DNA of 64,000 nt from an uncultured Spirochaetaceae bacterium (GTDB lineage Bacteria > Spirochaetota > Spirochaetia > Treponematales > Treponemataceae). Position 1 is the stretch's first letter, and every line of letters starts with the position of its first letter. The notes under the pieces are model-generated. The model was not told where the DNA came from and made no database searches. It saw only the letters and a list, made by a program, of their open reading frames with translations. Location: the NCBI GenBank assembly GCA_902778325.1, contig CACYWZ010000019.1:1-64000 (forward strand), in the 5' to 3' direction. Positions 4,186-44,688 of the stretch are shown one piece after another. The translations under genes were made by a program, and so were the position numbers.

Positions 4186-5310
4186 ATGGGCGTCAAGCAG
4201 GGCAAAATCCTTATTATCGATGATGTGGAGATGAATCGCGCTATCTTGCGCGAGGCTTTCAGCGAGGTCTATGAGGTTCTTGAGGCAGAGAACGGCTATG
4301 AGGGGCTTGAGAAGATTGCCTCAAACGAAGACGAGCTGACTGCGGTTTTTCTTGACATTATTATGCCGGAACTCGACGGTTTCGGGGTCTTGGGCGAACT
4401 TGAATCAAGGGAGTTCCTTCACCGTGTTCCTGTTTTTTTGATTACTACAGAAGCAACGGCGTATGTTGCGGCAAAAGCGTATAACTACGGCGTTGTCGAT
4501 GTGATTTCAAAGCCGTTCAACATCACGATTATCAAGCGCCGCGTTGAGAATATCATTGAGCTTTATGCGCACCGAAACAAGCTTGAGAGCATGATTTACA
4601 AGAAGGAGATTGCGGCAAAGAGCGAACAGCAGAGGCAGTCGTCTTCGATTGCCCGAAGCGAGACAATCCAGAGCGCGCAGTGGACGATTATAGAAACGCT
4701 CGTTGCTTCTCTTGAGGCTCACAATATCGAGAGCGGAAAGCATATCAGGCGCATTAGCCGACTGACGAATATTCTTCTTCGCGACTTGAAGATTTCGCAC
4801 CCTGAGTATAATCTTTCGGACAAGGATATTCACGTTATCACGAAAGCAAGCGCTCTTCACGATATCGGAAAGATTGCGATTCCAGACCGCATTCTTTTGA
4901 AGCCGCGAAGTCAGGGCGTTCTCACTGACGGCGAGTTTGAGATTATGAAGACGCACACGACGAAAGGCTGCGATTTGATTGAGGCGATTCGCGCTTCTCT
5001 TTCGGAGGACATGTACAAGTTCTCGTATCAAATCACGAGAAGCCATCACGAGAGATGGGACGGCAACGGCTATCCTGACGGCTTGAAGGGCAATGATATT
5101 CCGATTGCCTCTCAGGCGGTTTCGATTTCGGACGCTTACAACGCTCTTGTGTCGAAGCGGAGCTACAAAGAGCCGATTGCTCATGAGAAGGCGGTTCAGA
5201 TGATTAATAACGGGCAGTGCGGCATGTTTAACCCGGACTTGCTTGAATGTTTCAACAAGGTCATCGACGGCATTTATCAAGAGATTTATGCCGCAGATTT
5301 GATAGACTGA
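4186..5310 (+). CDS. Response regulator with HD-GYP phosphodiesterase domain
   Basis: A receiver domain (residues ~5-125; LIIDDVE acidic pocket, phospho-Asp in AVFLDIIMPELDGFG, conserved Lys in VISKPFN) is joined by a helical linker to an HD-GYP domain (~160-374). The latter has the metal site ALHDIGKIAIPDRIL and the signature HHERWDGNGYPDGLKG. Such proteins hydrolyse cyclic di-GMP under phosphorylation control. ATG at 4186 is chosen because GGTGAGG lies 8 nt upstream; the in-frame GTG at 4177 overlaps that ribosome site. It follows the HPt gene and is probably its phospho-acceptor. The window also has one GGDEF synthase (30659-32713), giving both sides of c-di-GMP turnover. Confidence 0.93.
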   Translation: MGVKQGKILIIDDVEMNRAILREAFSEVYEVLEAENGYEGLEKIASNEDELTAVFLDIIMPELDGFGVLGELESREFLHRVPVFLITTEATAYVAAKAYNYGVVDVISKPFNITIIKRRVENIIELYAHRNKLESMIYKKEIAAKSEQQRQSSSIARSETIQSAQWTIIETLVASLEAHNIESGKHIRRISRLTNILLRDLKISHPEYNLSDKDIHVITKASALHDIGKIAIPDRILLKPRSQGVLTDGEFEIMKTHTTKGCDLIEAIRASLSEDMYKFSYQITRSHHERWDGNGYPDGLKGNDIPIASQAVSISDAYNALVSKRSYKEPIAHEKAVQMINNGQCGMFNPDLLECFNKVIDGIYQEIYAADLID

Positions 5311-34876: not shown

Positions 34877-35644
34877 TTATTCCTTAAACAAATCAGTTAC
34901 GTGGAACTGAGTCAAATCCTTTATAACTTCTGCAGCAATTATCATTCCTGCAACAGAAGGAACAAAAGCATTGCTGCCGGGAGTCTGCTTTTTTGGCTTT
35001 CCTTTGCGCTCAACACCAGAAGTGTCTTCAACCTCGGCTTCATCAGCTTTTGGAGGAATTGCGCTTTCTGTTGAAAACACAACCTTGAGCCTTTTGATGT
35101 TCCTTTTTTTAAGCTCGTTTCTCATGACACGAGCAAGCGGACAAACAGAAGTTCTCGTAATATCTGCAACCTTTAGCTTTGTCGGGTCAACTTTGTTTCC
35201 TGCTCCCATACAACTGATGACAGGCTTTTTTAGCGCCTTTCCCCTCGTGATGATTTCGAGTTTTCCTGTAACTGTATCAATGCAATCCACGATGTAATCG
35301 TACTGTGAAAAATCAAAAAGGTCGGCGGTGTCTGGCATGTAAAAAGTTTTCCATTTTGTAACCTTACAGTCAGGATTTATATCGTGAATACGCTCTTCGG
35401 CGACATCGACCTTATATTTTCCGATTGTGGAATGAAGAGCATAAAGTTGGCGGTTGAGATTTGAAAGGCAGATTTTATCATCATCAACAATATCAATTGC
35501 ACCGATTCCAGAGCGCACTAAGGCTTCAACAACATAGCTCCCAACACCGCCAATACCAAAAACAATGACTCGTGAATTGTGGATTTTTTTCATATTGTCT
35601 TTTCCAAATATAAGTGCTGTTCTTGTGAATTGATACATATTCAT
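34877..35644 (-). CDS. tcdA: TcdA-like E1-type enzyme (tRNA t6A dehydratase)
   Basis: 255 residues, ThiF/MoeB/HesA superfamily. Nucleotide-binding VIVFGIGGVGSYVVEALVRS, DDDKICLSNLNRQLYA (metal/ATP Asp-Asn-Arg-Gln), DYIVDCIDTVTGKLEI and ISCMGAGNKVDPTKL match TcdA/CsdL, which cyclises t6A to ct6A at position 37 of ANN-decoding tRNAs. The C-terminal insert (KADEAEVEDTSGVERKGKPK) and GSNAFVPSVAGMIIA are also typical. ATG at 35644 follows AAGGA; a TTG at 35659 is in frame but less likely. A different ubiquitin-like activation role is possible but less likely. Confidence 0.88.
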   Translation of the reverse strand: MNMYQFTRTALIFGKDNMKKIHNSRVIVFGIGGVGSYVVEALVRSGIGAIDIVDDDKICLSNLNRQLYALHSTIGKYKVDVAEERIHDINPDCKVTKWKTFYMPDTADLFDFSQYDYIVDCIDTVTGKLEIITRGKALKKPVISCMGAGNKVDPTKLKVADITRTSVCPLARVMRNELKKRNIKRLKVVFSTESAIPPKADEAEVEDTSGVERKGKPKKQTPGSNAFVPSVAGMIIAAEVIKDLTQFHVTDLFKE

Positions 35645-35802
35645 AAAATCCTTGCTCAATAAGATTTGCCTATAATCGTAGGTGCGTTATTATAAATAAA
35701 TGCGCAGAAACTTACAATGCAATTCCTCCTTTACATTTTTGCATATTCAAAGCGGTGTAAATAAATCGCCTTCGATGATAAGTTATAGCAAGTGAGGTAA
35801 AT

Positions 35803-36492
35803 ATGATTTTAGGTGAAAAACTCAGTATTCTCAGAAAGCAAAACGGATTTTCGCAGGAAGAACTTGCAGAAAAGTTGAATATCTCACGACAAACAGTGAG
35901 CAAATGGGAAAACGGGCTTGCAATCCCAGAACTTGACGGACTCATTGCGCTTAGCACTCTTTATCATATTTCGATTGATCGCATTGTTAAAAATGACGAT
36001 GAGTGCAATATTCCCCTTTCAAAAAGCGAAGACAAAACAGAACGTGCAGAACTTATTGATTTTCTTGTGAAAGCGAAACGGAAAACTTATGCAGGACATG
36101 GCGCAGAAGTTTGTCCGTGCCGACCAAAATCCCACGATTTGAAATACGAAGAAAAAACTTCTAGCGGAGAACTTTTGTATATCGACACTTATCTTGGCGG
36201 AAAGAATTTTTCTGGCGAAGAAGCTCTTTGGCGTGATGAAGAGCCACTTTGGTCAATGAATTACTTTGGACGTGTGATAGAAGAACCGTTTTCGGGCGAT
36301 TTTCTAAAAGCTGCTCTTTTTGAAGTGACAAGCGAAAAGCCCTTTCGTGGTCCTGACATTTTTCGACAAGGCGATTACACCTATCATTGTCAAAGTAGAG
36401 GCGATTTTGAGTGGTTTCAGGGCTATGAAGATATTTTTTATCTGGACAAAAAGATTTATGAGCTATATTTCCACGGCGGTGTGATTTTGTAA
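35803..36492 (+). CDS. XRE-family regulator with DUF5680 domain
   Basis: 229 residues. HTH_3 domain (GEKLSILRKQNGFSQEELAE, LNISRQTVSKWENGLAIPEL) at 3-65 and a C-terminal DUF5680-like domain of ~150 residues (ELIDFLVKAKRKTYAGHGAE, LLYIDTYLGGKNFSGEEALW, YELYFHGGVIL). The C-domain is of unknown function but is common behind XRE domains in Firmicutes and spirochaetes. Start follows GTGAGGTAAAT. It lies next to the peptide island and could regulate it; this is inference from position. Confidence 0.88.
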   Translation: MILGEKLSILRKQNGFSQEELAEKLNISRQTVSKWENGLAIPELDGLIALSTLYHISIDRIVKNDDECNIPLSKSEDKTERAELIDFLVKAKRKTYAGHGAEVCPCRPKSHDLKYEEKTSSGELLYIDTYLGGKNFSGEEALWRDEEPLWSMNYFGRVIEEPFSGDFLKAALFEVTSEKPFRGPDIFRQGDYTYHCQSRGDFEWFQGYEDIFYLDKKIYELYFHGGVIL

Positions 36493-36544: not shown

Positions 36545-36733
36545 ATGGCAAGCATTTTGATTAAAGACAAAACAAAAGAGCATCGAGAGCAGATTGTCCG
36601 TGAATCACTGGGCGACGATTACGATGTAGGCTGTGGATACGAGTCCACAAGACTGTGTCATGCAGTGAAAAGTGGTATCTTTTGTGTAAAAGATTCACAT
36701 AACATTCTTCCCGTTTCACCCTCGCATATATAA
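36545..36733 (+). CDS. Small protein, probably truncated
   Basis: 62 residues starting MASILIKDKTKEHREQIVRE, then SLGDDYDVGCGYESTRLCHA. The N-terminal half resembles a group of short cysteine-containing proteins of Firmicutes and spirochaetes that start the same way; this is from memory and weak. The C-terminal part (KDSHNILPVSPSHI) is antisense to the end of the leader peptide gene 36658-36864, so one of the two ends was probably joined by recombination. Confidence 0.4.
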   Translation: MASILIKDKTKEHREQIVRESLGDDYDVGCGYESTRLCHAVKSGIFCVKDSHNILPVSPSHI

Positions 36734-36864
36734 GAATACAAGCTCTGTGCTTCAACTGAGTTTTCAATCTCTGCACCTCCGTTAATCAGATACAGTGCAT
36801 CGCCTGTAATCTCTACACAATCTGAAAAATCAAACTCTTTTATTGTACACTGTTTTCTTTTCAT
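36658..36864 (-). CDS. LINGG-leader peptide 1, 68 aa
   Basis: Leader MKRKQCTIKEFDFSDCVEIT then GDALYLINGGAEIENSVEAQ, followed by a 28-residue tail (SLYSYICEGETGRMLCESFT, ending QKIPLFTA). The Gly-Gly preceded by hydrophobic residues looks like the processing site of double-glycine leaders used by C39-peptidase exporters. The DNA from ATG to the Glu-Ala-Gln codons is nearly identical to the copy at 39637-39786; after that the two differ. Ribosome site AGAGAGAAAC. The mature peptide would hold two Cys. It lies 34 bp after the YcxB-like membrane protein. Function is inferred only. Confidence 0.6.
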   Translation of the reverse strand: MKRKQCTIKEFDFSDCVEITGDALYLINGGAEIENSVEAQSLYSYICEGETGRMLCESFTQKIPLFTA

Positions 36865-36898
36865 GTTTCTCTCTCTTTTGTCATTTATGCAGGGTTTA

Positions 36899-37381
36899 TT
36901 ATTTTTTAATTCTGCTTGCAATATTTTCCAATTCTGATTTTAAGTTTTCAGAGTCATAGAAGCAGTCCCAATTTATATAAAATCGATTCAGTCCTTTTAA
37001 ATAAAAAGTTATTGAATCCTTTTCTTTCTTAAATTTCTTAAAATCGGAAAAATTATATGTTCTTGTTGCAACAGAATTTTTAGAAACCAAACAATCATCT
37101 TTTATTTCTAATTCCCAGAAATCAACTGCTGATGATTTTTTTTTCATCCCGTTATACATAATTATAAATGCTAAAATCGCTCCAACGATATTCGCAAAAA
37201 TAAGAAGTTTGCTAGCAAAAGATACTGACATTTTGTAAGAATTAGTATAAAACTCAAAAATATTAAAAAAATCCGCAAGAATTAAACCTAAAAAAAGATA
37301 TACCCAAATATCTTTTAATAAATGTATGAAGTTCTTTTTATCAAACTCCTTCTTTTTATCATAATTAAATTTAAAATTCAT
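36899..37381 (-). CDS. YcxB-like membrane protein
   Basis: 160 residues. Charged N-terminus, two membrane helices (~26-45 and ~56-78), then a C-terminal domain like YcxB (WELEIKDDCLVSKNSVATRT, YNFSDFKKFKKEKDSITFYL, FYINWDCFYDSENLKSELE), a PH-like fold often found in small membrane proteins beside bacteriocin loci. It may protect the cell from the neighbouring peptide; that role is inferred. Start MNFKFNYDKKKE with GGAGGAAAGAAA upstream. Confidence 0.65.
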   Translation of the reverse strand: MNFKFNYDKKKEFDKKNFIHLLKDIWVYLFLGLILADFFNIFEFYTNSYKMSVSFASKLLIFANIVGAILAFIIMYNGMKKKSSAVDFWELEIKDDCLVSKNSVATRTYNFSDFKKFKKEKDSITFYLKGLNRFYINWDCFYDSENLKSELENIASRIKK

Positions 37382-37411
37382 TTTCTTTCCTCCACAGGTT
37401 TTAATTACTTT

Positions 37412-37588
37412 CTACAATACATTGAAGATTAACAGGATTAAATGAAGTCCATACCCAAAAATCAATATTGTGAATATAATAATAAGTTTTTTTCTTCTCT
37501 TTGCATTTTCTTTTTCAGTTTTTGAAAAAATAAATAGAGCAACAATGAAAAAAATAATCGAAAATATATCATATGGTATAGAATGCAT
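37412..37588 (-). CDS. Small two-helix membrane protein, 58 aa
   Basis: Start MHSIPYDIFSIIFFIVALFI with AAAGGGGAAAAA upstream. Two hydrophobic helices are separated by a basic loop (SKTEKENAKRRKK). Length and layout fit an immunity-like or toxin-like peptide. A longer frame to 37618 is open but has no ribosome site. Confidence 0.5.
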   Translation of the reverse strand: MHSIPYDIFSIIFFIVALFIFSKTEKENAKRRKKLIIIFTILIFGYGLHLILLIFNVL

Positions 37589-37671
37589 TTTTTCCCCTTT
37601 TACTAACTGAAAACTCATCTTCTTGTTTCGACAAATCTTTTCTGGATATCATATTGATACTTGTTCTTTTG

Positions 37672-37791
37672 TTATTTCGTTACATCTGTTCCTTCATTTG
37701 AGAAATATGAAATTGAGTTCTTAAATGAAGCCGTATCATTACAAAATGATATATTATCTAATAGATCTTTTGCAAGTTGCTTAAGATTCAT
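37672..37791 (-). CDS. Short peptide, 39 aa
   Basis: Reads MNLKQLAKDLLDNISFCNDT then ASFKNSISYFSNEGTDVTK. The first 15 residues form an amphipathic helix as in precursor leaders, and KQLA recalls the MKRKQLA start of 39637-39786. Its ATG overlaps the end of the 37781-38410 gene by 11 nt. AAAGGTC lies upstream. No GG motif. Coding status uncertain. Confidence 0.35.
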   Translation of the reverse strand: MNLKQLAKDLLDNISFCNDTASFKNSISYFSNEGTDVTK

Positions 37792-38410
37792 TTTTATAGA
37801 CCTTTCTATAATATTTTATTTTCAAAATCTTCTCGACAAGAGAATAATTTTTTGAAACAAGCAAAATATAAGCGATATTAATCATATAAAAAATGAGAAT
37901 GCCCATGCAGAGTGGGTTTCTATACTGGTCATCTTCTCCTCTGTTTTGAATAAAAAGACCAAAATAGACTATTGAATACTTCAATATATTATTAAAAAGC
38001 AACAATACTGATTTTTTTAATGAATTTCTGTCTATACAAATTCTGCAAATGTAAAACCCAGGACTTGTTACAACTGAGTTTAGTGTAAGCAAGACAAAAA
38101 GAACAAATAGACCTACATTTTGTGAGAAAAATGTAATTGAAAAGTTTAACAGAAAAGTAAAAGCAATCATTGCTAATGTAAAAAAGCAAAAATTAAAGAA
38201 AAATGCTTTATTGATATCAAAAAAAGTGATTTCACTTCCTTCGGCAACATTCTCACGAGGTTCTTTTTGCTTTTGTCTGTCAAGCAGAAACAAAACAACA
38301 GAATACAGAATGAATGGTATAAAGCTGAGATAATTTCCTATTACGAGTGAAAAATCCCAAAATGGTAAAATGCTGAGCAACGCCAAAAGGCATATAATTA
38401 AGACGGTCAT
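37781..38410 (-). CDS. Multi-pass membrane protein, 209 aa
   Basis: Five or six hydrophobic helices (for example TVLIICLLALLSILPFWDFS at the start and LAMIAFTFLLNFSITFF in the middle), with basic loops. Not recognised. The ATG overlaps the stop of 38407-38736 by 4 nt (ATGA), so the two are translated together. Confidence 0.6.
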   Translation of the reverse strand: MTVLIICLLALLSILPFWDFSLVIGNYLSFIPFILYSVVLFLLDRQKQKEPRENVAEGSEITFFDINKAFFFNFCFFTLAMIAFTFLLNFSITFFSQNVGLFVLFVLLTLNSVVTSPGFYICRICIDRNSLKKSVLLLFNNILKYSIVYFGLFIQNRGEDDQYRNPLCMGILIFYMINIAYILLVSKNYSLVEKILKIKYYRKVYKNES

Positions 38411-38736
38411 TTTTTCTCATTCTCTTTTGAAACTTCACCTAAATCTAATCCGCAACAAGGGCAATTTTTGGGAACGGTATGATATACACCTTTGTAATAT
38501 TTCGACATAACTCTGTATGTTGAAATCAATTTTGTTCCACAATTAGGACATTTTATGTTTTCTATATGAATCCAGATGCATATAAAAATGAACCAGAAAA
38601 GCCCGATACAAATCTTTGCAGAGATGCCGCCTAAATATAAAAATACGCATAGGAAAAAATCTATAAAAGGGCAGAAAAACAGGATAAACAGAAAATACGC
38701 TCGGAGATTGATTCCTAATTTTTGTAGTAACTTCAT
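38407..38736 (-). CDS. Membrane protein with C-terminal zinc ribbon
   Basis: 109 residues. Two membrane helices (~14-32 and ~38-56), then a cytosolic four-Cys ribbon: IKCPNCGTKLI and KNCPCCGLDLGEV. Such ribbons bind one zinc. Family unknown. Coupled by overlap to the following 209-residue membrane protein. Confidence 0.6.
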   Translation of the reverse strand: MKLLQKLGINLRAYFLFILFFCPFIDFFLCVFLYLGGISAKICIGLFWFIFICIWIHIENIKCPNCGTKLISTYRVMSKYYKGVYHTVPKNCPCCGLDLGEVSKENEKK

Positions 38737-38778
38737 TTTGCTAATTTATTCCTCTTGAATTTTTCTCTCCGATTTTCA

Positions 38779-39258
38779 TTAGAAGAACTTTTTTATAATA
38801 TATCTTCTAACAAAATCTATTATAAACACCACAATGAAAAATAGCGCAATTTTGATAAAATCGTTAAAAAGTTTTTTAGGTTCTTTTGTGTACCATGATA
38901 CATCTATGATTACATCAGGATTTGCTTTTGTTATATTTACAAAAAGTTCTGACAGCCTTTTATGCTCCATAGGAAGATATAATCCGTAACTTTTTCCGTC
39001 ATAACTTTCAATTACATACATACCAGGAGATGGTCTTGTATAAATTCGTGCTATATCTTTATAGGCTATTTTTTCTTTTCCAAATAAATAAAACCTGATT
39101 AAATAATCTTCTTGATAATCTACTCTTGCTCGTAAGGGAATGTAGCCAAGAAAAATCTGCATGCATAAAACACAACAAGTAAATTTGATATCGAACTCTT
39201 TCCAAAGAGCAACTTGAAACACACATAGTACTAAAAAGAAGATATCAAGAGATAGCAA
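38779..39258 (-). CDS. Membrane protein with PH-like middle domain, 159 aa
   Basis: Hydrophobic N-terminus (~1-45), a soluble beta-rich part (RARVDYQEDYLIRFYLFGKE, KIAYKDIARIYTRPSPGMYV, SYGLYLPMEH) and a C-terminal helix (FFIVVFIIDFV). The middle recalls bacterial PH domains, as in the YcxB-like and 42716-43225 proteins of this island. Start context is weak; CTAGAG lies upstream. Confidence 0.5.
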   Translation of the reverse strand: MLSLDIFFLVLCVFQVALWKEFDIKFTCCVLCMQIFLGYIPLRARVDYQEDYLIRFYLFGKEKIAYKDIARIYTRPSPGMYVIESYDGKSYGLYLPMEHKRLSELFVNITKANPDVIIDVSWYTKEPKKLFNDFIKIALFFIVVFIIDFVRRYIIKKFF

Positions 39259-39285
39259 AATACTCTAGGACGTATTTTTTTCATT

Positions 39286-39618
39286 TTACTTCTCCCCAAA
39301 TTTGTATTGAACTAAATCATCAAAGTTCCCTTTATGAATTTTACAATAATTAACGAACTTATATTGCAAAATGGCTACCGATATTGCTCCTAATATAATA
39401 AATAAGCATGTCAAACATGTATAGAAATAATTTAAAACATATACAAACTTGGAAACTTTGTTACGATTTCCAAGATTATCTTGTACATAACAGATATTAT
39501 TCTCTATTTTTCCATTTGTAGCATTTCCGCCAATACTTTTGTCAAAAAAATATAGTCCCACCAAAAGTAATATCGTTATAAATATAGTTATTAAAAACAC
39601 TCTATTCCTTATTTTCAT
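39286..39618 (-). CDS. Small membrane protein, 110 aa
   Basis: Two hydrophobic helices (~6-24 and ~62-86) with an extracytoplasmic loop (SIGGNATNGKIENNICYVQD). It begins 18 bp after the LINGG-leader gene 39637-39786, as a dedicated partner would. Not recognised. Confidence 0.55.
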   Translation of the reverse strand: MKIRNRVFLITIFITILLLVGLYFFDKSIGGNATNGKIENNICYVQDNLGNRNKVSKFVYVLNYFYTCLTCLFIILGAISVAILQYKFVNYCKIHKGNFDDLVQYKFGEK

Positions 39619-39636
39619 TTAATATATTCTCTGGAG

Positions 39637-39786
39637 CTATAGATATTGTGCCTGTGCTTCAACTGAGTTTTCAATCTCTGCACCTCCGTTAATCAGATAT
39701 AGCGCATCGCCTGTAATTTCTACGCAATCTGAAAAATCATACTTTGAAAAGTCAAACTCTTTTATTGCAAGTTGCTTTCTTTTCAT
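39637..39786 (-). CDS. LINGG-leader peptide 2, 49 aa
   Basis: Reads MKRKQLAIKEFDFSKYDFSD, CVEITGDALYLINGG, AEIENSVEAQAQYL. It is the clearest copy of the leader with an inserted KYDFS duplication compared with 36658-36864. Only 15 residues follow Gly-Gly, so the product is a very short peptide or the gene is cut. DNA between the two copies is almost identical (compare 36749-36864 with 39659-39786). The next gene, 18 bp on, is a small membrane protein. Confidence 0.6.
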   Translation of the reverse strand: MKRKQLAIKEFDFSKYDFSDCVEITGDALYLINGGAEIENSVEAQAQYL

Positions 39787-39801
39787 GTTTTTATCACTAC
39801 C

Positions 39802-40155
39802 TTAACATACTTTTATGTCAAATATCTTGATTAGAACAAACCATGTAATAAAACATATATGAAACGGCAACGAGATATATGCATAATCAACATTTTTAGC
39901 CAAGCCTATAATATTTAATATGATACCAATTCCTAAATCAAAATATAAACTAAGAACATTTTTATCACTTATATATCCTTTCGTTAATAGCCTGCACATT
40001 AAAAAGAAAATTGCTGCAGAAAAAACAGATATAAGTAAAGAAATAAAAAGTAGGTTTACTTGAACCCCAATATACAGATGTACAAAAACATCAAAGGCTA
40101 ATAATATAATTGCGACATACTGTATATTTCGCTTAAAAAAATTAAATCCAAACAT
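39802..40155 (-). CDS. Four-helix membrane protein, 117 aa
   Basis: Four hydrophobic helices with short loops (NIQYVAIILLAFDVFVHLYI, LLFISLLISVFSAAIFFL, and two more). It follows the GVTG peptide gene 40165-40344 by 9 bp. Its last codons (39814-39842) recur almost exactly at 41334-41362 behind a truncated leader, showing that a second copy once existed there. Function unknown. Confidence 0.6.
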   Translation of the reverse strand: MFGFNFFKRNIQYVAIILLAFDVFVHLYIGVQVNLLFISLLISVFSAAIFFLMCRLLTKGYISDKNVLSLYFDLGIGIILNIIGLAKNVDYAYISLPFHICFITWFVLIKIFDIKVC

Positions 40156-40164
40156 ATTTCTTCA

Positions 40165-40344
40165 TCAATCCTTTTTGGTCATTGGTATTACTACAGTCCC
40201 AGTTTTCCAAACACCGCCACCTATACTTCCAAAACTCCAAGAATTCGGTAAACCTGATGATTTCAAATTGTCTAAATCGTAAGTTCCAGTAACTCCAAGA
40301 CCTAATACAAGAGCTATTGCAGGAATTAAAAAATCTTCAATCAT
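40165..40344 (-). CDS. Glycine-rich small peptide, 59 aa
   Basis: Starts MIEDFLIPAIALVLGLGVTG and continues TYDLDNLKSSGLPNSWSFGS, IGGGVWKTGTVVIPMTKKD. A hydrophobic N-terminal helix ends in a Gly-rich stretch, then a small polar/Gly-rich region. GGAGAGGAAAA precedes the ATG. The ATG overlaps by 4 nt the stop of a MKRKQ mini-frame (40341-40388), as in coupled translation. The GVTG motif recurs in the remnant at 43233-43352. A bacteriocin-like core is possible. Confidence 0.5.
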   Translation of the reverse strand: MIEDFLIPAIALVLGLGVTGTYDLDNLKSSGLPNSWSFGSIGGGVWKTGTVVIPMTKKD

Positions 40345-40388
40345 TTTTCCTCTCCGTTCAGCCAATTAACACGTTGCTTTCTTTTCAT
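40341..40388 (-). pseudogene. MKRKQ leader remnant, 15 codons
   Basis: Reads MKRKQRVNWLNGEEK and stops with TGA inside the ATG of the next gene. The first five codons and the GGAGAAAGAAG ribosome site match the other leader copies. The rest suggests an internal deletion that joined the start to a region near the Leu-Asn-Gly codons. Confidence 0.5.
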
Positions 40389-40428
40389 CTTCTTTCTCCG
40401 CTAACAAAATTCGTCTGAACTTTGTCTG

Positions 40429-41280
40429 CTATTTTTTGTTTATAATGCTCACACCTTTTAGATCTTTTGTGTACCAAGAAAGTGCTGAACACAGAACTGC
40501 AATAAAAAAGCCGATTCCTGCACTCTGTCGAAAGAAGTTATCCGATAAAACCCAAATCATTCCTATAGTTCCAATGACAAAAGTAGTAACTATATGTTGC
40601 TTTAATCTTTGAGGAGAAGAAAACTTTTTGGTAATGAAAAAAAACAGAGTAGAAAGGAAATAACCAATATATTGCCCCACTGTCAATATCATTAATTCAG
40701 AAACTGAAAACATTTCATTTTGAAGCAGAAAATTACTCAACGGACACAAAACAAATACTGGAATAAAAAACAATAAATGCCTTTTCATTTTGATTTCTGA
40801 CTTTTGGGCTGATTCTAGTTTTTTATTTTCTTCTGCCAGCTTATTTTCTTCTATTTTTTTATCTTCTGCCGACTTCTTATTTTCTTCAGCTTGCTTTTCT
40901 TTTGGACGAACAAACAACCAGTAGAACGATGCTGTAAAAGTTGCAATTGCCAAGAGGCTTCCAACAGTATCTTTTGGTGCTCCAGATTCTCGCTCTAGAC
41001 TTACGATTTGAGATATTATAGGCTTAATAGAAAAGATGGAGTTTATAAACCAAATTAAAGGTAGCAAGAAACTGATATTTTTAGGGTTCAATAAATCACT
41101 AATATAAAAAACTAATAATGAAAAAAAATATAAAGCTATAGATATTCCCATATATAGAAAAATGCTAAAGTCTATTTTTCCATTTTTTTCCCAGAAAACA
41201 CACACAAAAAATATCATCAAAATTGTGGACAATACTAAGAATGTTATAAATGGTATAACTTTGTATTTTGTAAGTTTCAT
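40429..41280 (-). CDS. Membrane protein with K/E-rich loop, paralogue A
   Basis: 283 residues. Six or seven hydrophobic helices in two blocks with a long charged cytosolic loop (KEKQAEENKKSAEDKKIEEN, KLAEENKKLESAQKSEIKMK) between them. MKLTKYKVIPFITF start is chosen by alignment with its paralogue (41434-42214), which shares the AGGAGTAAGTAATAAA leader; an upstream ATG at 41307 is also in frame. C-terminus CSALSWYTKDLKGVSIINKK. Family unknown. Confidence 0.65.
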   Translation of the reverse strand: MKLTKYKVIPFITFLVLSTILMIFFVCVFWEKNGKIDFSIFLYMGISIALYFFSLLVFYISDLLNPKNISFLLPLIWFINSIFSIKPIISQIVSLERESGAPKDTVGSLLAIATFTASFYWLFVRPKEKQAEENKKSAEDKKIEENKLAEENKKLESAQKSEIKMKRHLLFFIPVFVLCPLSNFLLQNEMFSVSELMILTVGQYIGYFLSTLFFFITKKFSSPQRLKQHIVTTFVIGTIGMIWVLSDNFFRQSAGIGFFIAVLCSALSWYTKDLKGVSIINKK

Positions 41281-41316
41281 TTTATTACTTACTCCTATCA
41301 ACTTCAATACGAGGTT

Positions 41317-41409
41317 TTAAAATAAATCCTGCATATGTCGAATATCTTGATTAGAACAAACCTTGTCTGAGAAATCAAACTCTTTAATCGCACACTGCTT
41401 TCTTTTCAT
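41317..41409 (-). pseudogene. Chimeric MKRKQ leader fragment, 30 codons
   Basis: MKRKQCAIKEFDFSD is the normal leader start with its GGAGAGAGAAAAAC ribosome site. It then jumps into the DNA that ends the four-helix membrane gene: 41334-41362 equals 39814-39842 with one mismatch in 29. The result is a nonsense tail (KVCSNQDIRHMQDLF). A deletion between two leader/membrane cassettes explains it. Confidence 0.6.
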
Positions 41410-41433
41410 GTTTTTCTCTCTCCGATTTAGCTG

Positions 41434-42214
41434 CTACTTCTTGTTTATGATACTTACACCTTTAAGGTCTTTTGTGTACCAAGAAAGTGCTGAACACAGA
41501 GCTGCAATAAAGAATCCCATTCCTGCACCTTGTCGAAAGTCTTCATCTGTTAAAAAAAAATACAAAGCCTGCAATGCATGGGAGAAAGGCAGAAACTACA
41601 AGCTGCTTGAATCTCTGAGGTGAAGCAATCTTTTTTGAAACAAAGAAAAACAGGGTGAAGATAAAGTATGTGGCATACTGAAATACAATAACTAGCAGTG
41701 TTTCTTTCAGCGAAGAGTCTTCTAAATTTGTAATAAAAGTAATAAGAGGGCTGAGAACAGCAACAGGAATAAAGAATAGCAATTGTCTTTTCATTTTGAT
41801 TTCTGACTTTTTGACAGCTTCTATTTTTTTATCTTCTGCTGACTTCTTGTTTTCTTCTGCAAACTTTTCTTTTGGGCGAAGAAATAGCCAGTAGAATGAG
41901 GCTGCAAAAGCAGAAACAGGCATAGCTCTAATACCTATTTCTTCTAGTGTTATTTTTCTAAAAGTTGCTATTGAAGCGATATTTGCTATTATTGACATTA
42001 AAAAAAAGACAACTGGTGCATAATGATTAACTTTTAATACTTCCTGAGTCTTGAAAACTAGGCAAAGAAAAAGAAATGGAACAATCGAAAGCACCCATAA
42101 ATAAACAATTTGCTCTCTATTTTTTTCCTTAATTATGAACAAAATGATTGTCAAAATAAAATTTAATGCTACAAGTGATATTAACGGTATGAGTTTATAT
42201 TTTGTAAACTTCAT
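41434..42214 (-). pseudogene. Membrane protein paralogue B, frameshifted at an A9 tract
   Basis: From MKFTKYKLIPLISLVALNFI it matches paralogue A (40429-41280) in layout, including KFAEENKKSAEDKKIEAVKK and SPQRFKQ. The frame runs into a stop at 41543 just after nine consecutive T (A9 on plus, 41552-41560). With eight, it would continue LTDEDFRQGAGMGFFIAALC to SALSWYTKDLKGVSIINKK and end at 41434, as in paralogue A, giving 259 residues. The tract is a likely slippage site, so this may be an OFF phase rather than a dead gene. Confidence 0.7.
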
Positions 42215-42218
42215 TTTA

Positions 42219-42698
42219 TTACTTACTCCTTAATGTTCTAATAAAAAGAAAATAAATGCAACTCATAAAAAGACTGATTGGCACTGCAAAAACATACAAC
42301 AAATTTCTTGATAGGTCATTAGTCCAAAGCGCACAAAGTTGTTCAGAATCTTTTTCTTTTAATTCATAGTATTCGATTGTTTTGCTTAGAACAAAATCAA
42401 AAACATTATTTGCACCAAAAACTAATGCAAAATAAATCATAAAGCTAAGCAAAAGAAATTTTATTTTCCTAGACTCAATATTCTTAAACTTCAAACCAAA
42501 AGAAAATGCAACAATGCTAAAAACAATTGGAAAAACAACTACATATAAGTACATCTCAAATGGCAGACAATTTGAAAAACTGTATCGAACAGGAATTACA
42601 CCAGCTACTAAAATAGCAGCTAAATAAAATGTAACAGAAAGAACCAAAGACATATAACTGCTGTCAATTTCTTTAATCGCACACTGCTTTCTTTTCAT
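42219..42698 (-). CDS. Membrane protein fused to the start of a MKRKQ leader
   Basis: 159 residues. MKRKQCAIKEIDSS with ribosome site GGAGAGAGAAG is the leader start. It passes directly into a four-helix membrane protein (YMSLVLSVTFYLAAILVAGV and on). An internal Met (YMSLVL) could be the older start. Stop is 5 bp before paralogue B. A fusion by recombination at the leader is the simplest reading. Confidence 0.55.
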   Translation of the reverse strand: MKRKQCAIKEIDSSYMSLVLSVTFYLAAILVAGVIPVRYSFSNCLPFEMYLYVVVFPIVFSIVAFSFGLKFKNIESRKIKFLLLSFMIYFALVFGANNVFDFVLSKTIEYYELKEKDSEQLCALWTNDLSRNLLYVFAVPISLFMSCIYFLFIRTLRSK

Positions 42699-42715
42699 CT
42701 TCTCTCTCCTAATTT

Positions 42716-43225
42716 TTAATTGCAAAAAAAGGTATTTGGGGATAAATGCACCGTATTTCTATCAGCTAATCCCCAAAAATATTCAGTTTCTTGCAAAAAA
42801 ATATCTATCGAATTGGGAGTGCTCACTTTAGATTTTGGAATATAAATAAATCGGTACTTTTCACCTTTTTTTGTTATTACCAAAATCTTATACGGATTTG
42901 CTCTTGTTGTTGGATAGATAATCAGTTGAATAAAAATCTGAGCTATATCCGATTTTGTGATATCAGTGCTGTTCAACCCCTTCGTAAAGCGCAGTGTTTG
43001 ATAATCCACTCGGCTGACTTTTGTTTGTTCGCTGAAATGAAAAGTTCCATAAACAAAAATCCACAAGATATAAAAAACATTGATTATGACGAAAAATGTT
43101 ATGTCGTCTTTTGTTGGAACAAGATTGTTTAGTTTTGTACGAACTAAGAAAATAGTACAAAAACAGAAATAAATGAAATAACTGTATCTGTTCAAAAAAT
43201 AGTGTGATGATAATGTGTTTTTCAT
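42716..43225 (-). CDS. Membrane protein with PH-like domain, 169 aa
   Basis: Two N-terminal helices (~13-30 and ~40-60), then a soluble domain (SRVDYQTLRFTKGLNSTDIT, KSDIAQIFIQLIIYPTTRAN, YKILVITKKGEKYRFIYIP) that resembles the beta-rich domain of 38779-39258. AGGAAAAAA precedes the ATG. The stop lies just before the ribosome site of the next gene. Confidence 0.6.
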   Translation of the reverse strand: MKNTLSSHYFLNRYSYFIYFCFCTIFLVRTKLNNLVPTKDDITFFVIINVFYILWIFVYGTFHFSEQTKVSRVDYQTLRFTKGLNSTDITKSDIAQIFIQLIIYPTTRANPYKILVITKKGEKYRFIYIPKSKVSTPNSIDIFLQETEYFWGLADRNTVHLSPNTFFCN

Positions 43226-43232
43226 TTTTTTC

Positions 43233-43352
43233 CTATTTTATGGTTGTATAACCTATCCCAAAATCACTCATTTTAATATCACCTTTATACCCCACAGAAG
43301 AAGTTATACCTATATTAAATCCTGTAACCCCATTTTCTCTCTCCGTTATAAT
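43233..43352 (-). pseudogene. Peptide remnant with GVTG motif
   Basis: Without a usable start, the frame reads ENGVTGFNIGITSSVGYKGD then IKMSDFGIGYTTIK and stops 7 bp before the membrane gene 42716-43225. The leader-type ribosome site GGAGAGAGAAA and an ATG (43333) sit here too, but that ATG opens only seven codons. GVTG is shared with 40165-40344. It looks like a core whose leader was lost. Confidence 0.4.
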
Positions 43353-43355
43353 GTA

Positions 43356-43577
43356 TTATCTTAAAAATATCAAATGATTTGTTATATTTTTCGATAGCTG
43401 TATAACAAAACCTTCTTTTTCTGCAAAACTGATATAATCCTTTTCTGGTTGTGTTGCAAAAGGGTGCTGTTTTTTATTGTTTATCATTCCGAACAAGTTT
43501 TCAGAATTTACTTGAATTATTGCAGAGGATGAAAACGAGTTTGAGCATGACAATAGCTTATGAAGCATACTTTTCAA
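43356..43577 (-). CDS. Small unknown protein, 73 aa
   Basis: MKSMLHKLLSCSNSFSSSAI, later HPFATQPEKDYISFAEKEGF. Not recognised; AGAGAGG lies 15 nt before the ATG, too far to be convincing. The frame continues after its stop into the GVTG remnant. First candidate gene of the minus-strand island. Confidence 0.3.
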   Translation of the reverse strand: MKSMLHKLLSCSNSFSSSAIIQVNSENLFGMINNKKQHPFATQPEKDYISFAEKEGFVIQLSKNITNHLIFLR

Positions 43578-43896: not shown

Positions 43897-44688
43897 ATGC
43901 CAAGAAAAAAGCCGAGTTTCATTTCTATCGAAGAAGCGAAAACTGCTGTTGATGTCGTGGTTCGTGAAAGCAATCTGCCATCAGCGGACGGAAAGAAGCA
44001 TCAGTACGGTTCGATTGTGCATCGAAAAGCAACAGTGCGCTCAATTCTTGCCGAAATGGAGGAGTATAATCAGTCTTTAGCGAGCAAAGAAACTATGTTT
44101 TATATTGCAAAAGAGCTGTCCATGCGTATGATGAAAAAATTTAAGCAAGGATATTCAGTGGAGCTTCTTGACTTCGGAACGATTTTTCCAACTATCAAAG
44201 GAAGTATTTGTGCAAGCGACAAGCCGAGCGATATAAAAAAGAAGTTTGATGTAGGATTCACTCCGTCTGATGAATCTCGTGGCGCACTTAAAAATCTTAC
44301 AGTCCGATGCGTGCACCGTCCGCCTGTGCAGCACTGCATTTTTTCAATCGTCAATATGTTTGAGAGAGAGGAGCGGAATAAGCTTCGCGTCGGGTGCATG
44401 GCAAAAATCAATGGCAAGTCGATAAAGCTCGGAGGAGCGAAAAGCGGACTGTATGCCGCGGCAGTCGAGGAAAACTGGAACGGAATTCTTCCGAGCCGCA
44501 AGGACTGGATTTTGATGGAGCATGTGGCACAGAACAAGCCGTCATCGCTTGAATTTTATGTGGATGAGCTTGAAGAGGGCTTTTATGTGTTTGTGGTTGA
44601 AACCTCTTTGAGCGCAGGTGGAAAGTGTCTTAAAAAGAGTGTCGTTTTGAATACTTGTGTGGTGAAAGTGGAAAAAAAACATTCATAA
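43897..44688 (+). CDS. HU/IHF-like DNA-binding protein with DUF4469-type C-domain
   Basis: 263 residues. The N-terminal ~120 (VRSILAEMEEYNQSLASKET, YSVELLDFGTIFPTIKGSIC, KKFDVGFTPSDESRGALKNL) match the HU-like domain found mainly in Bacteroidetes. The C-terminal part (KLRVGCMAKINGKSIKLGGA, WNGILPSRKDWILMEHVAQN, NKPSSLEFYVDELEEGFYVF) fits DUF4469, an Ig-like domain. Probably a nucleoid or regulatory DNA binder. GAGGAGGAAAAT precedes the ATG. It borders the peptide island. Confidence 0.8.
   Translation: MPRKKPSFISIEEAKTAVDVVVRESNLPSADGKKHQYGSIVHRKATVRSILAEMEEYNQSLASKETMFYIAKELSMRMMKKFKQGYSVELLDFGTIFPTIKGSICASDKPSDIKKKFDVGFTPSDESRGALKNLTVRCVHRPPVQHCIFSIVNMFEREERNKLRVGCMAKINGKSIKLGGAKSGLYAAAVEENWNGILPSRKDWILMEHVAQNKPSSLEFYVDELEEGFYVFVVETSLSAGGKCLKKSVVLNTCVVKVEKKHS

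Follow-up and report, generated by a model that had tools for sequence, protein, structure and literature searches.

What does a row of short peptide leaders alternating with small membrane proteins stand for in a bacterial genome? The question is raised by the minus strand from 43577 to 36658 of a 64-kb stretch of DNA (hereafter the window) from an uncultured Spirochaetaceae bacterium, whose assembly (173 contigs) is 94% complete. The answer first proposed from the sequence alone (the sequence-only reading) was a set of precursors of bacteriocins, or of ribosomally synthesized and post-translationally modified peptides, accompanied by self-protection genes. The double-glycine leader implied by this proposal stood, and some of the membrane proteins adjacent to the leaders are probably immunity proteins, judging by their homologs; complete small precursors, on the other hand, were not supported. 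According to our results, the region probably represents a heterogeneous polyimmunity array that stems from a polymorphic-toxin locus and in which toxins were repeatedly displaced and leader stubs left behind. Polyimmunity loci are already known, and a toxin-stripped array with leader stubs would be a variant of them. The function proposed here for the array draws on gene position and homology.

The leader and its copies in the window

Five minus-strand starts (42698, 41409, 40388, 39786 and 36864) encoded MKRKQ, as first noticed. Two of them opened complete leaders ending in LINGG (36658-36864 and 39637-39786) with near-identical DNA (86% over 115 nt) and differing tails, likewise in line with the initial description; both read ...VEITGDALYLINGG and continued with AEIENSVEAQ. 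The three others (41409, 40388 and 42698) were stubs devoid of GG. By its sequence, the MKRKQ/LINGG element is a double-glycine export leader. The complete copies scored E 2.8e-20 and 3.8e-16 with a leader profile that included them and were the genome's only two matches at E 0.01; stub 41350-41409 was also reached by a single-peptide query (E 0.0025). No bacteriocin-signal family of NCBIfam matched the two LINGG copies. The ribosome site thought to be shared by all starts was found in part: a clear GGAG preceded the three stubs, but the site was partial (AGAGAGAGAA) at complete leader 36864 and none was visible at 39786.

Leader proteins and exporters across the genus

A profile built from nine leader sequences was run over 197 genomes of the genus, this one included. 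The sequence-only reading had suggested looking for the leader in related genomes and near C39-peptidase ATP-binding cassette (ABC) exporters, and both were observed: at E 0.01 the profile matched 30 of the 196 other genomes, 18 of which also reached E 1e-6, and a C39 match or exporter open reading frame (ORF) lay in 14 of 27 leader loci. To obtain these loci, 17 of the 30 genomes were picked for strong scores (fetched loci are designated by L-numbers below, and genomes of the genus by G-numbers). A scan with a narrower profile yielded 10 loci on 9 contigs, all from metagenome-assembled genomes of Treponema sp. and, where the source was plain, from horse faeces or water-buffalo rumen or omasum. 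With a single window peptide as query, matches at E 0.1 came from three genomes out of 58 others. In G005 and G034 the leader headed large proteins and a C39-type ABC exporter was encoded next to them, and a match in G032 was set aside (28% identity, two internal stops, ordinary-looking neighbour genes). One window peptide each, compared with genome_contigs and viral_contigs, gave no confirmed relative.

Most leader-headed proteins of the relatives were large. Leader ORFs, counted at E 1e-6 or better in the fetched loci (a few being cut by the end of a contig or locus), measured 146-493 aa in 48 of 61 cases (median 346), the other 13 staying below 140 aa. Many of the leader ORFs shared a stretch after GG resembling AEIENSxEAxAxAxxGDTxTRxDGTxxTxxQGDIxWA, others starting differently; the complete window leaders diverged from this stretch after 10 and 12 residues. 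Beyond the post-GG region came a low-complexity linker and then a variable C-terminus. Among 44 aligned effectors NGG was invariant and overall mean column identity was 13%. Domain matches comprised LysM (8), DUF4329 (2), EF-hand (2), Ntox44 (1), phage lysozyme (1) and VanY/M15 (1), together with some weak chance-like ones. Since their C-termini vary and a few of them match lysozyme, VanY, Ntox44 or DUF4329, the leader-headed large proteins look like polymorphic toxins. Many of them were followed by a gene for a small membrane protein or by a lipoprotein-like gene. The Rhs toxin of L108 (8309-10936) also displayed a LysM match, as do eight of the GG effectors, which suggests an exchange of modules between these two kinds of toxin.

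C39 was matched in 23 of 31 leader-positive genomes versus 58 of 166 leader-negative ones (Fisher p 1e-4), and in 16 of the 18 genomes with a leader at E 1e-6 (p 1.9e-5). In L055/L056, Pfam recognized C39 and ABC domains, HlyD and an outer-membrane efflux protein (OEP). No C39 exporter had been seen in the window, and the whole genome likewise gave 0 C39 matches; when a relative's exporter was compared with this genome, all 35 among the matches listed started at exporter residue 163 or later. In the fetched stretch of G165, a genome with no C39 match, leader ORFs were short only (47 aa, two copies), and each overlapped by 4 bp a gene that appeared lipoprotein-like by eye. Both C39 matches of G138 fell in two stand-alone 108-aa ORFs of L105 (6923-7249 and 12364-12690), the first of which matched the N-terminal part of C39 in Pfam; these ORFs are possible exporter stubs.

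Membrane proteins of the array and their homologs

Eleven ORFs with membrane segments, predicted by a simple hydropathy count, were aligned on the same strand with mostly short gaps (the 60-residue ORF 40165 excluded), in agreement with the ten or so small membrane proteins initially counted between the leaders. The PH/YcxB-like domains announced for some of them were not recovered: no PH or YcxB family turned up when eight membrane proteins were compared with Pfam at E up to 1. Compared with itself, the window displayed one clear paralogous pair (40429-41280 and 41434-42214, 42% identity) and otherwise weak matches besides the leader repeats. All matches of window proteins in NCBIfam and Pfam lay below curated cut-offs, including a zinc-ribbon for 38407 (0.003), TsaT toxin for 37412 (0.006) and YajC for 40429 (0.002). 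Anti-phage defence was considered and rejected, ten membrane proteins giving weak PADLOC matches only (0.013, 0.026). Two single-sequence structure models of membrane proteins were too poor to judge (predicted local distance difference test scores, pLDDT, of 50.1 and 57.2).

Homologs in relatives were more informative. Three of the 11 ORFs had homologs directly behind leader- or Rhs-type proteins and two more behind ORFs judged toxin-like by eye, the remaining ones being immunity candidates by position only. The family of 38407-38736 occurred in 9 of the 196 other genomes, all belonging to the 30 leader-positive ones (p 1.5e-8). At four of its 11 places it stood directly behind an effector or effector remnant (twice in L055, L053 448-756 and L063 8241-8513), and at four others leader ORFs were found in the same stretch (L053 1631, L064, L065 and L059). 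A member found locally, L090 379-633, also followed an effector. Effectors preceding members of this family had in common a C-terminal LVIDLDNxxDSGINxSxG-like stretch (DLDN type).

A homolog of 42716-43225 (24% identity, 7e-7) directly followed the Rhs toxin of L108; besides this one, the members of the family outside the window were those of L107 (53% identical, no visible toxin) and L110 (weak, no toxin) and a weak match in L111, which was left out, making four in all. In L139, a homolog of 37781-38410 (28%, 1e-11) overlapped by 4 bp an Rhs-associated core protein (TIGR03696, 2.8e-15); of this family two other members were found, L139 being the one whose context was read. The family of 38779-39258 had three members: that of L106 overlapped by 4 bp an ORF whose start was leader-like as judged by eye, that of L105 sat in a GG-leader array, and the context of the L109 member was unclear. 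A homolog of 39286-39618, met in passing in L139 without a genome-wide search (74% identity, E 1e-27), followed a glycine-rich tail-like ORF. L139 1863-6958 is itself another array: it holds a fragment of an Rhs core as well as ORFs of the glycine-rich tail-like kind, and two window membrane proteins have homologs there. A paralog of 36899-37381 was present in this genome on another contig.

Remnants of toxin tips

Two short frames probably represent toxin tips (Table 1). Frame 43233-43355 stood just upstream of 42716-43225, its matching probable immunity gene, and ended ENGVTGFNIGITSSVGYKGDIKMSDFGIGY...; the Rhs toxin of L108, just upstream of the homologous gene, ended ENGITQIGLSVSTTLKGAFDFGSGGISY... 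(score 47; 1 of 2000 shuffles as good). When the ends of 4118 ORFs of at least 60 aa were compared with this frame, that of the L108 toxin ranked first. Likewise, ORF 40165-40344 aligned with the DLDN effector region with scores of 66, 57 and 51 (shuffles as good: 0/500 for L090 and L055, 1/500 for L053). These alignments are short and the likeness was spotted by eye before testing, so that they provide support rather than proof.

Table 1. Features of the array region (TM: predicted transmembrane segments)
Position	Strand	Feature and proposed nature
36658..36864	-	Complete leader MKRKQCTIKEFDFSDCVEITGDALYLINGG + AEIENSVEAQ, then unrelated tail; probable toxin-gene stub
36899..37381	-	Two-TM membrane protein; immunity role not supported by homolog contexts
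37412..37588	-	Small two-TM protein; matches in fetched loci weak only
37672..37791	-	39 aa ORF; may be a remnant, judging only by its size
37781..38410	-	Five-TM protein; probable immunity gene, homolog overlapping Rhs-core protein (L139)
38407..38736	-	Two-TM protein with CPNCG/CPCCG motifs; probable immunity gene, homologs behind GG-leader effectors
38779..39258	-	Membrane protein, start unclear (N-terminal part seemingly in another frame); possible immunity gene
39286..39618	-	Two-TM protein, 18 nt after leader stub; possible immunity gene
39637..39786	-	Complete leader MKRKQLAIKEFDFSKYDFSDCVEITGDALYLINGG + AEIENSVEAQAQ, then stop; leader stub
39802..40155	-	Four-TM protein; immunity candidate, judging only by its position
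40165..40344	-	Short ORF similar to a portion of the C-terminal region in DLDN-type GG effectors; probably left over from a toxin tip
40341..40388	-	MKRKQ leader stub, 15 codons
40429..41280	-	Six-TM protein; paralog of 41434-42214
41317..41409	-	Leader stub MKRKQCAIKEFDFSDK fused to sequence repeated from end of 39802-40155
41434..42214	-	Six-TM protein, second copy, split between two frames
42219..42698	-	First residues of leader (MKRKQCAIKEI) running on into four-TM protein
42716..43225	-	Membrane protein; probable immunity gene, homolog directly behind Rhs toxin (L108)
43233..43355	-	Open frame ending ENGVTGFNIGITSSVGYKGDIKMSDFGIGYTTIK, like last residues of L108 Rhs toxin; probable toxin-tip remnant

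Flanks of the array

A short plus-strand ORF (36545-36733, no Pfam match) overlapped the tail of the last leader and came after an HTH-DUF5680 regulator (35803-36492); this ORF possibly represents a gene truncated where the array ends. Beside the array, 43897-44688 encoded an HU-like DNA-binding protein with a DUF4469 domain. A ThiF/TcdA-type gene was found near the array of the window (34877-35659) and near that of G138 (L105 3684-4502), a nearness that was not used as evidence since the orientations differ.

Alternative explanations

Several results weigh against a polyimmunity array. At three of the 11 places of the 38407-38736 family (L087, L088 and L089), no leader occurred within the fetched stretch. 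The Rhs-core protein of L139 gave no Pfam match at 0.001, the L106 ORF ahead of the 38779 homolog missed the leader profile and had no match in Pfam or NCBIfam, and the glycine-rich L139 ORF ahead of the 39286 homolog had none in NCBIfam. Homologs of 36899-37381 had no leader ORF nearby in six contexts (L134-L138 and L141) of seven genomes, 40429-41280 had no homolog in the 196 other genomes at E 1e-4, and nothing convincing was obtained for the 39802, 42219 and 37412 proteins, which were compared with the fetched loci only. ORF 40165-40344 did not align with L063 (score 21; 483/500 shuffles as good), and G071, which gave no C39 match, had two leader proteins measuring 424 and 183 aa. Finally, the two complete window leaders, compared over 40 codons, differed by 7 synonymous and 3 non-synonymous changes, so that the window peptides could still be maintained. 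The duplicated stubs of L064 displayed 3 synonymous and 4 non-synonymous changes and the genes behind them 22 and 42, which is too few to tell.

Plain decay is the alternative that survives best, improbable as it is. Toxins, exporter and immunity genes would all be degenerating and none would be selected, which would account for the truncated leaders, the missing C39 match and two membrane genes seemingly split between frames (in the 38779 region and at 41434-42214). Yet nine other membrane ORFs are unbroken and share one orientation with mostly short gaps, clear ribosome sites were kept by three stubs, and the split frames could be explained by assembly errors.

Still harder to accept is a role of the leaders as functional precursors of small bacteriocins or of signalling peptides, in which the adjacent membrane proteins would confer immunity and the exporter would be missing from an assembly that is, after all, not fully complete (94%). 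The presence of complete GG leaders, their 7 to 3 ratio of synonymous to non-synonymous differences and two cysteines in one of the tails speak in its favour. However, GG is missing in three of the five copies, and the same leader, often with AEIENS... after GG, heads large proteins in the fetched loci. Each complete window copy does have a short core after GG (14 residues in one, 38 in the other), but it is cut inside the conserved stretch. The small-bacteriocin reading was rejected because the relatives are large, the cores are cut and the genome has no C39 match.

That the membrane proteins are unrelated small genes among which leader pieces arrived by chance recombination is very improbable: the family of 36899-37381 does occur without leader ORFs nearby and 40429-41280 lacks a homolog, but in three families homologs immediately follow leader- or Rhs-type proteins, and the family of 38407 co-occurs with the leader in nine genomes out of nine.

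Comparison with known systems

Extended polyimmunity loci were described in proteobacteria, bacteroidetes, firmicutes and actinobacteria, and Treponema denticola was named among the oral bacteria with many immunity proteins (PMC3482391). The window array resembles the loci presented there by its tandem, co-oriented and mutually unrelated probable immunity genes devoid of full toxins, and the relatives' toxins resemble the polymorphic toxins of the same paper by their constant N-terminus and variable C-terminus. Unlike these loci as described, the array is composed of membrane proteins throughout, with leader stubs and probable toxin tips in between, and its parent toxins carry a double-glycine leader. 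The main text of PMC3482391 mentions neither double-glycine nor type I secretion (nor its abbreviation T1SS), 'double-glycine leader' occurring once in the full text including references. Among the open-licence PMC articles listed, as judged by title and start of abstract, no description of double-glycine/C39-exported polymorphic toxins in Treponema was found.

A second likeness concerns the orphan immunity arrays of the Vibrio cholerae type VI secretion system (T6SS), as reported in PMC5361080, where the effector is replaced by incoming effector-immunity units and old immunity genes are kept. In the model proposed there, such a unit is anchored through a conserved upstream stretch, and its non-homologous end is joined at another place. 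Locus L055 contains a stretch (4387-5240) that fits this anchor model: it is a mosaic of three segments, each with a near-exact counterpart elsewhere in the array. The first (99.4% identity) corresponds to an effector tail plus immunity gene, the second (100%) to an internal segment of that effector, and the third (99.3%) to a leader together with the gene upstream of it; the overlaps between alignments at the joints measure 10 and 8 bp. The difference is that V. cholerae displays T6SS effectors, whereas a C39/type I route is found in the relatives studied here and no complete effector is left in the window.

Two other systems share single traits with the present one. The 'bacteriocin-type signal domain' proteins of T. 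denticola (TDE_0416/0422/0424, with sizes of 167, 614 and 607 residues) also display a double-glycine leader and a neighbouring bacteriocin ABC exporter; according to PMC11879956 they are secreted, and killing was not detected. Unlike the present proteins they are flanked by clustered lipoprotein genes, and the two are likened by description, not by sequence. In the glycine-zipper system of Caulobacter, an atypical bacteriocin likewise serves contact-dependent killing, yet it is presented as a two-protein bacteriocin and not as a polymorphic toxin family (PMC5380434).

Proposed origin and significance

For the polyimmunity array favoured here the following origin can be proposed, in which we infer toxicity, protection, secretion, the recombination path and any role of the stubs. 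In relatives, the double-glycine leader would open large toxins of antibacterial appearance, whose cleavage and secretion would fall to a C39-peptidase ABC exporter with HlyD and TolC-type partners. In this genome, toxin-immunity units that were either incoming or duplicated would have recombined at the shared leader sequence, and recombination would repeatedly have stripped the toxin body while the immunity gene was retained. The remainder would consist of leader stubs, perhaps toxin tips, and probable immunity genes lined up on one strand, of which some match GG-leader toxins and some Rhs toxins. Its likely present use would be protection from toxins of related neighbours, and the stubs may still supply a ribosome site and a start for the gene behind.

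A more speculative proposal, put forward tentatively, is that Treponema harbours an undescribed polymorphic toxin system, in which the double-glycine leader would serve both as export tag and as homology anchor for cassette swaps, and modules would be shared with Rhs loci. Stubs would then act as landing pads and translation starts, and the array would be a standing, re-armable immunity bank and not a ruin.

The locus may offer a snapshot of immunity-array formation, with leader anchors, short overlaps at joints and probable toxin tips still visible. It is also a warning that leader-motif mining can mistake toxin stubs for small bacteriocins. For Treponema, it draws attention to a C39/double-glycine route by which large polymorphic toxins would be exported and, should the secreted and so far unexplained 'bacteriocin-type signal' proteins of T. 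denticola be related, would provide a testable role for them.

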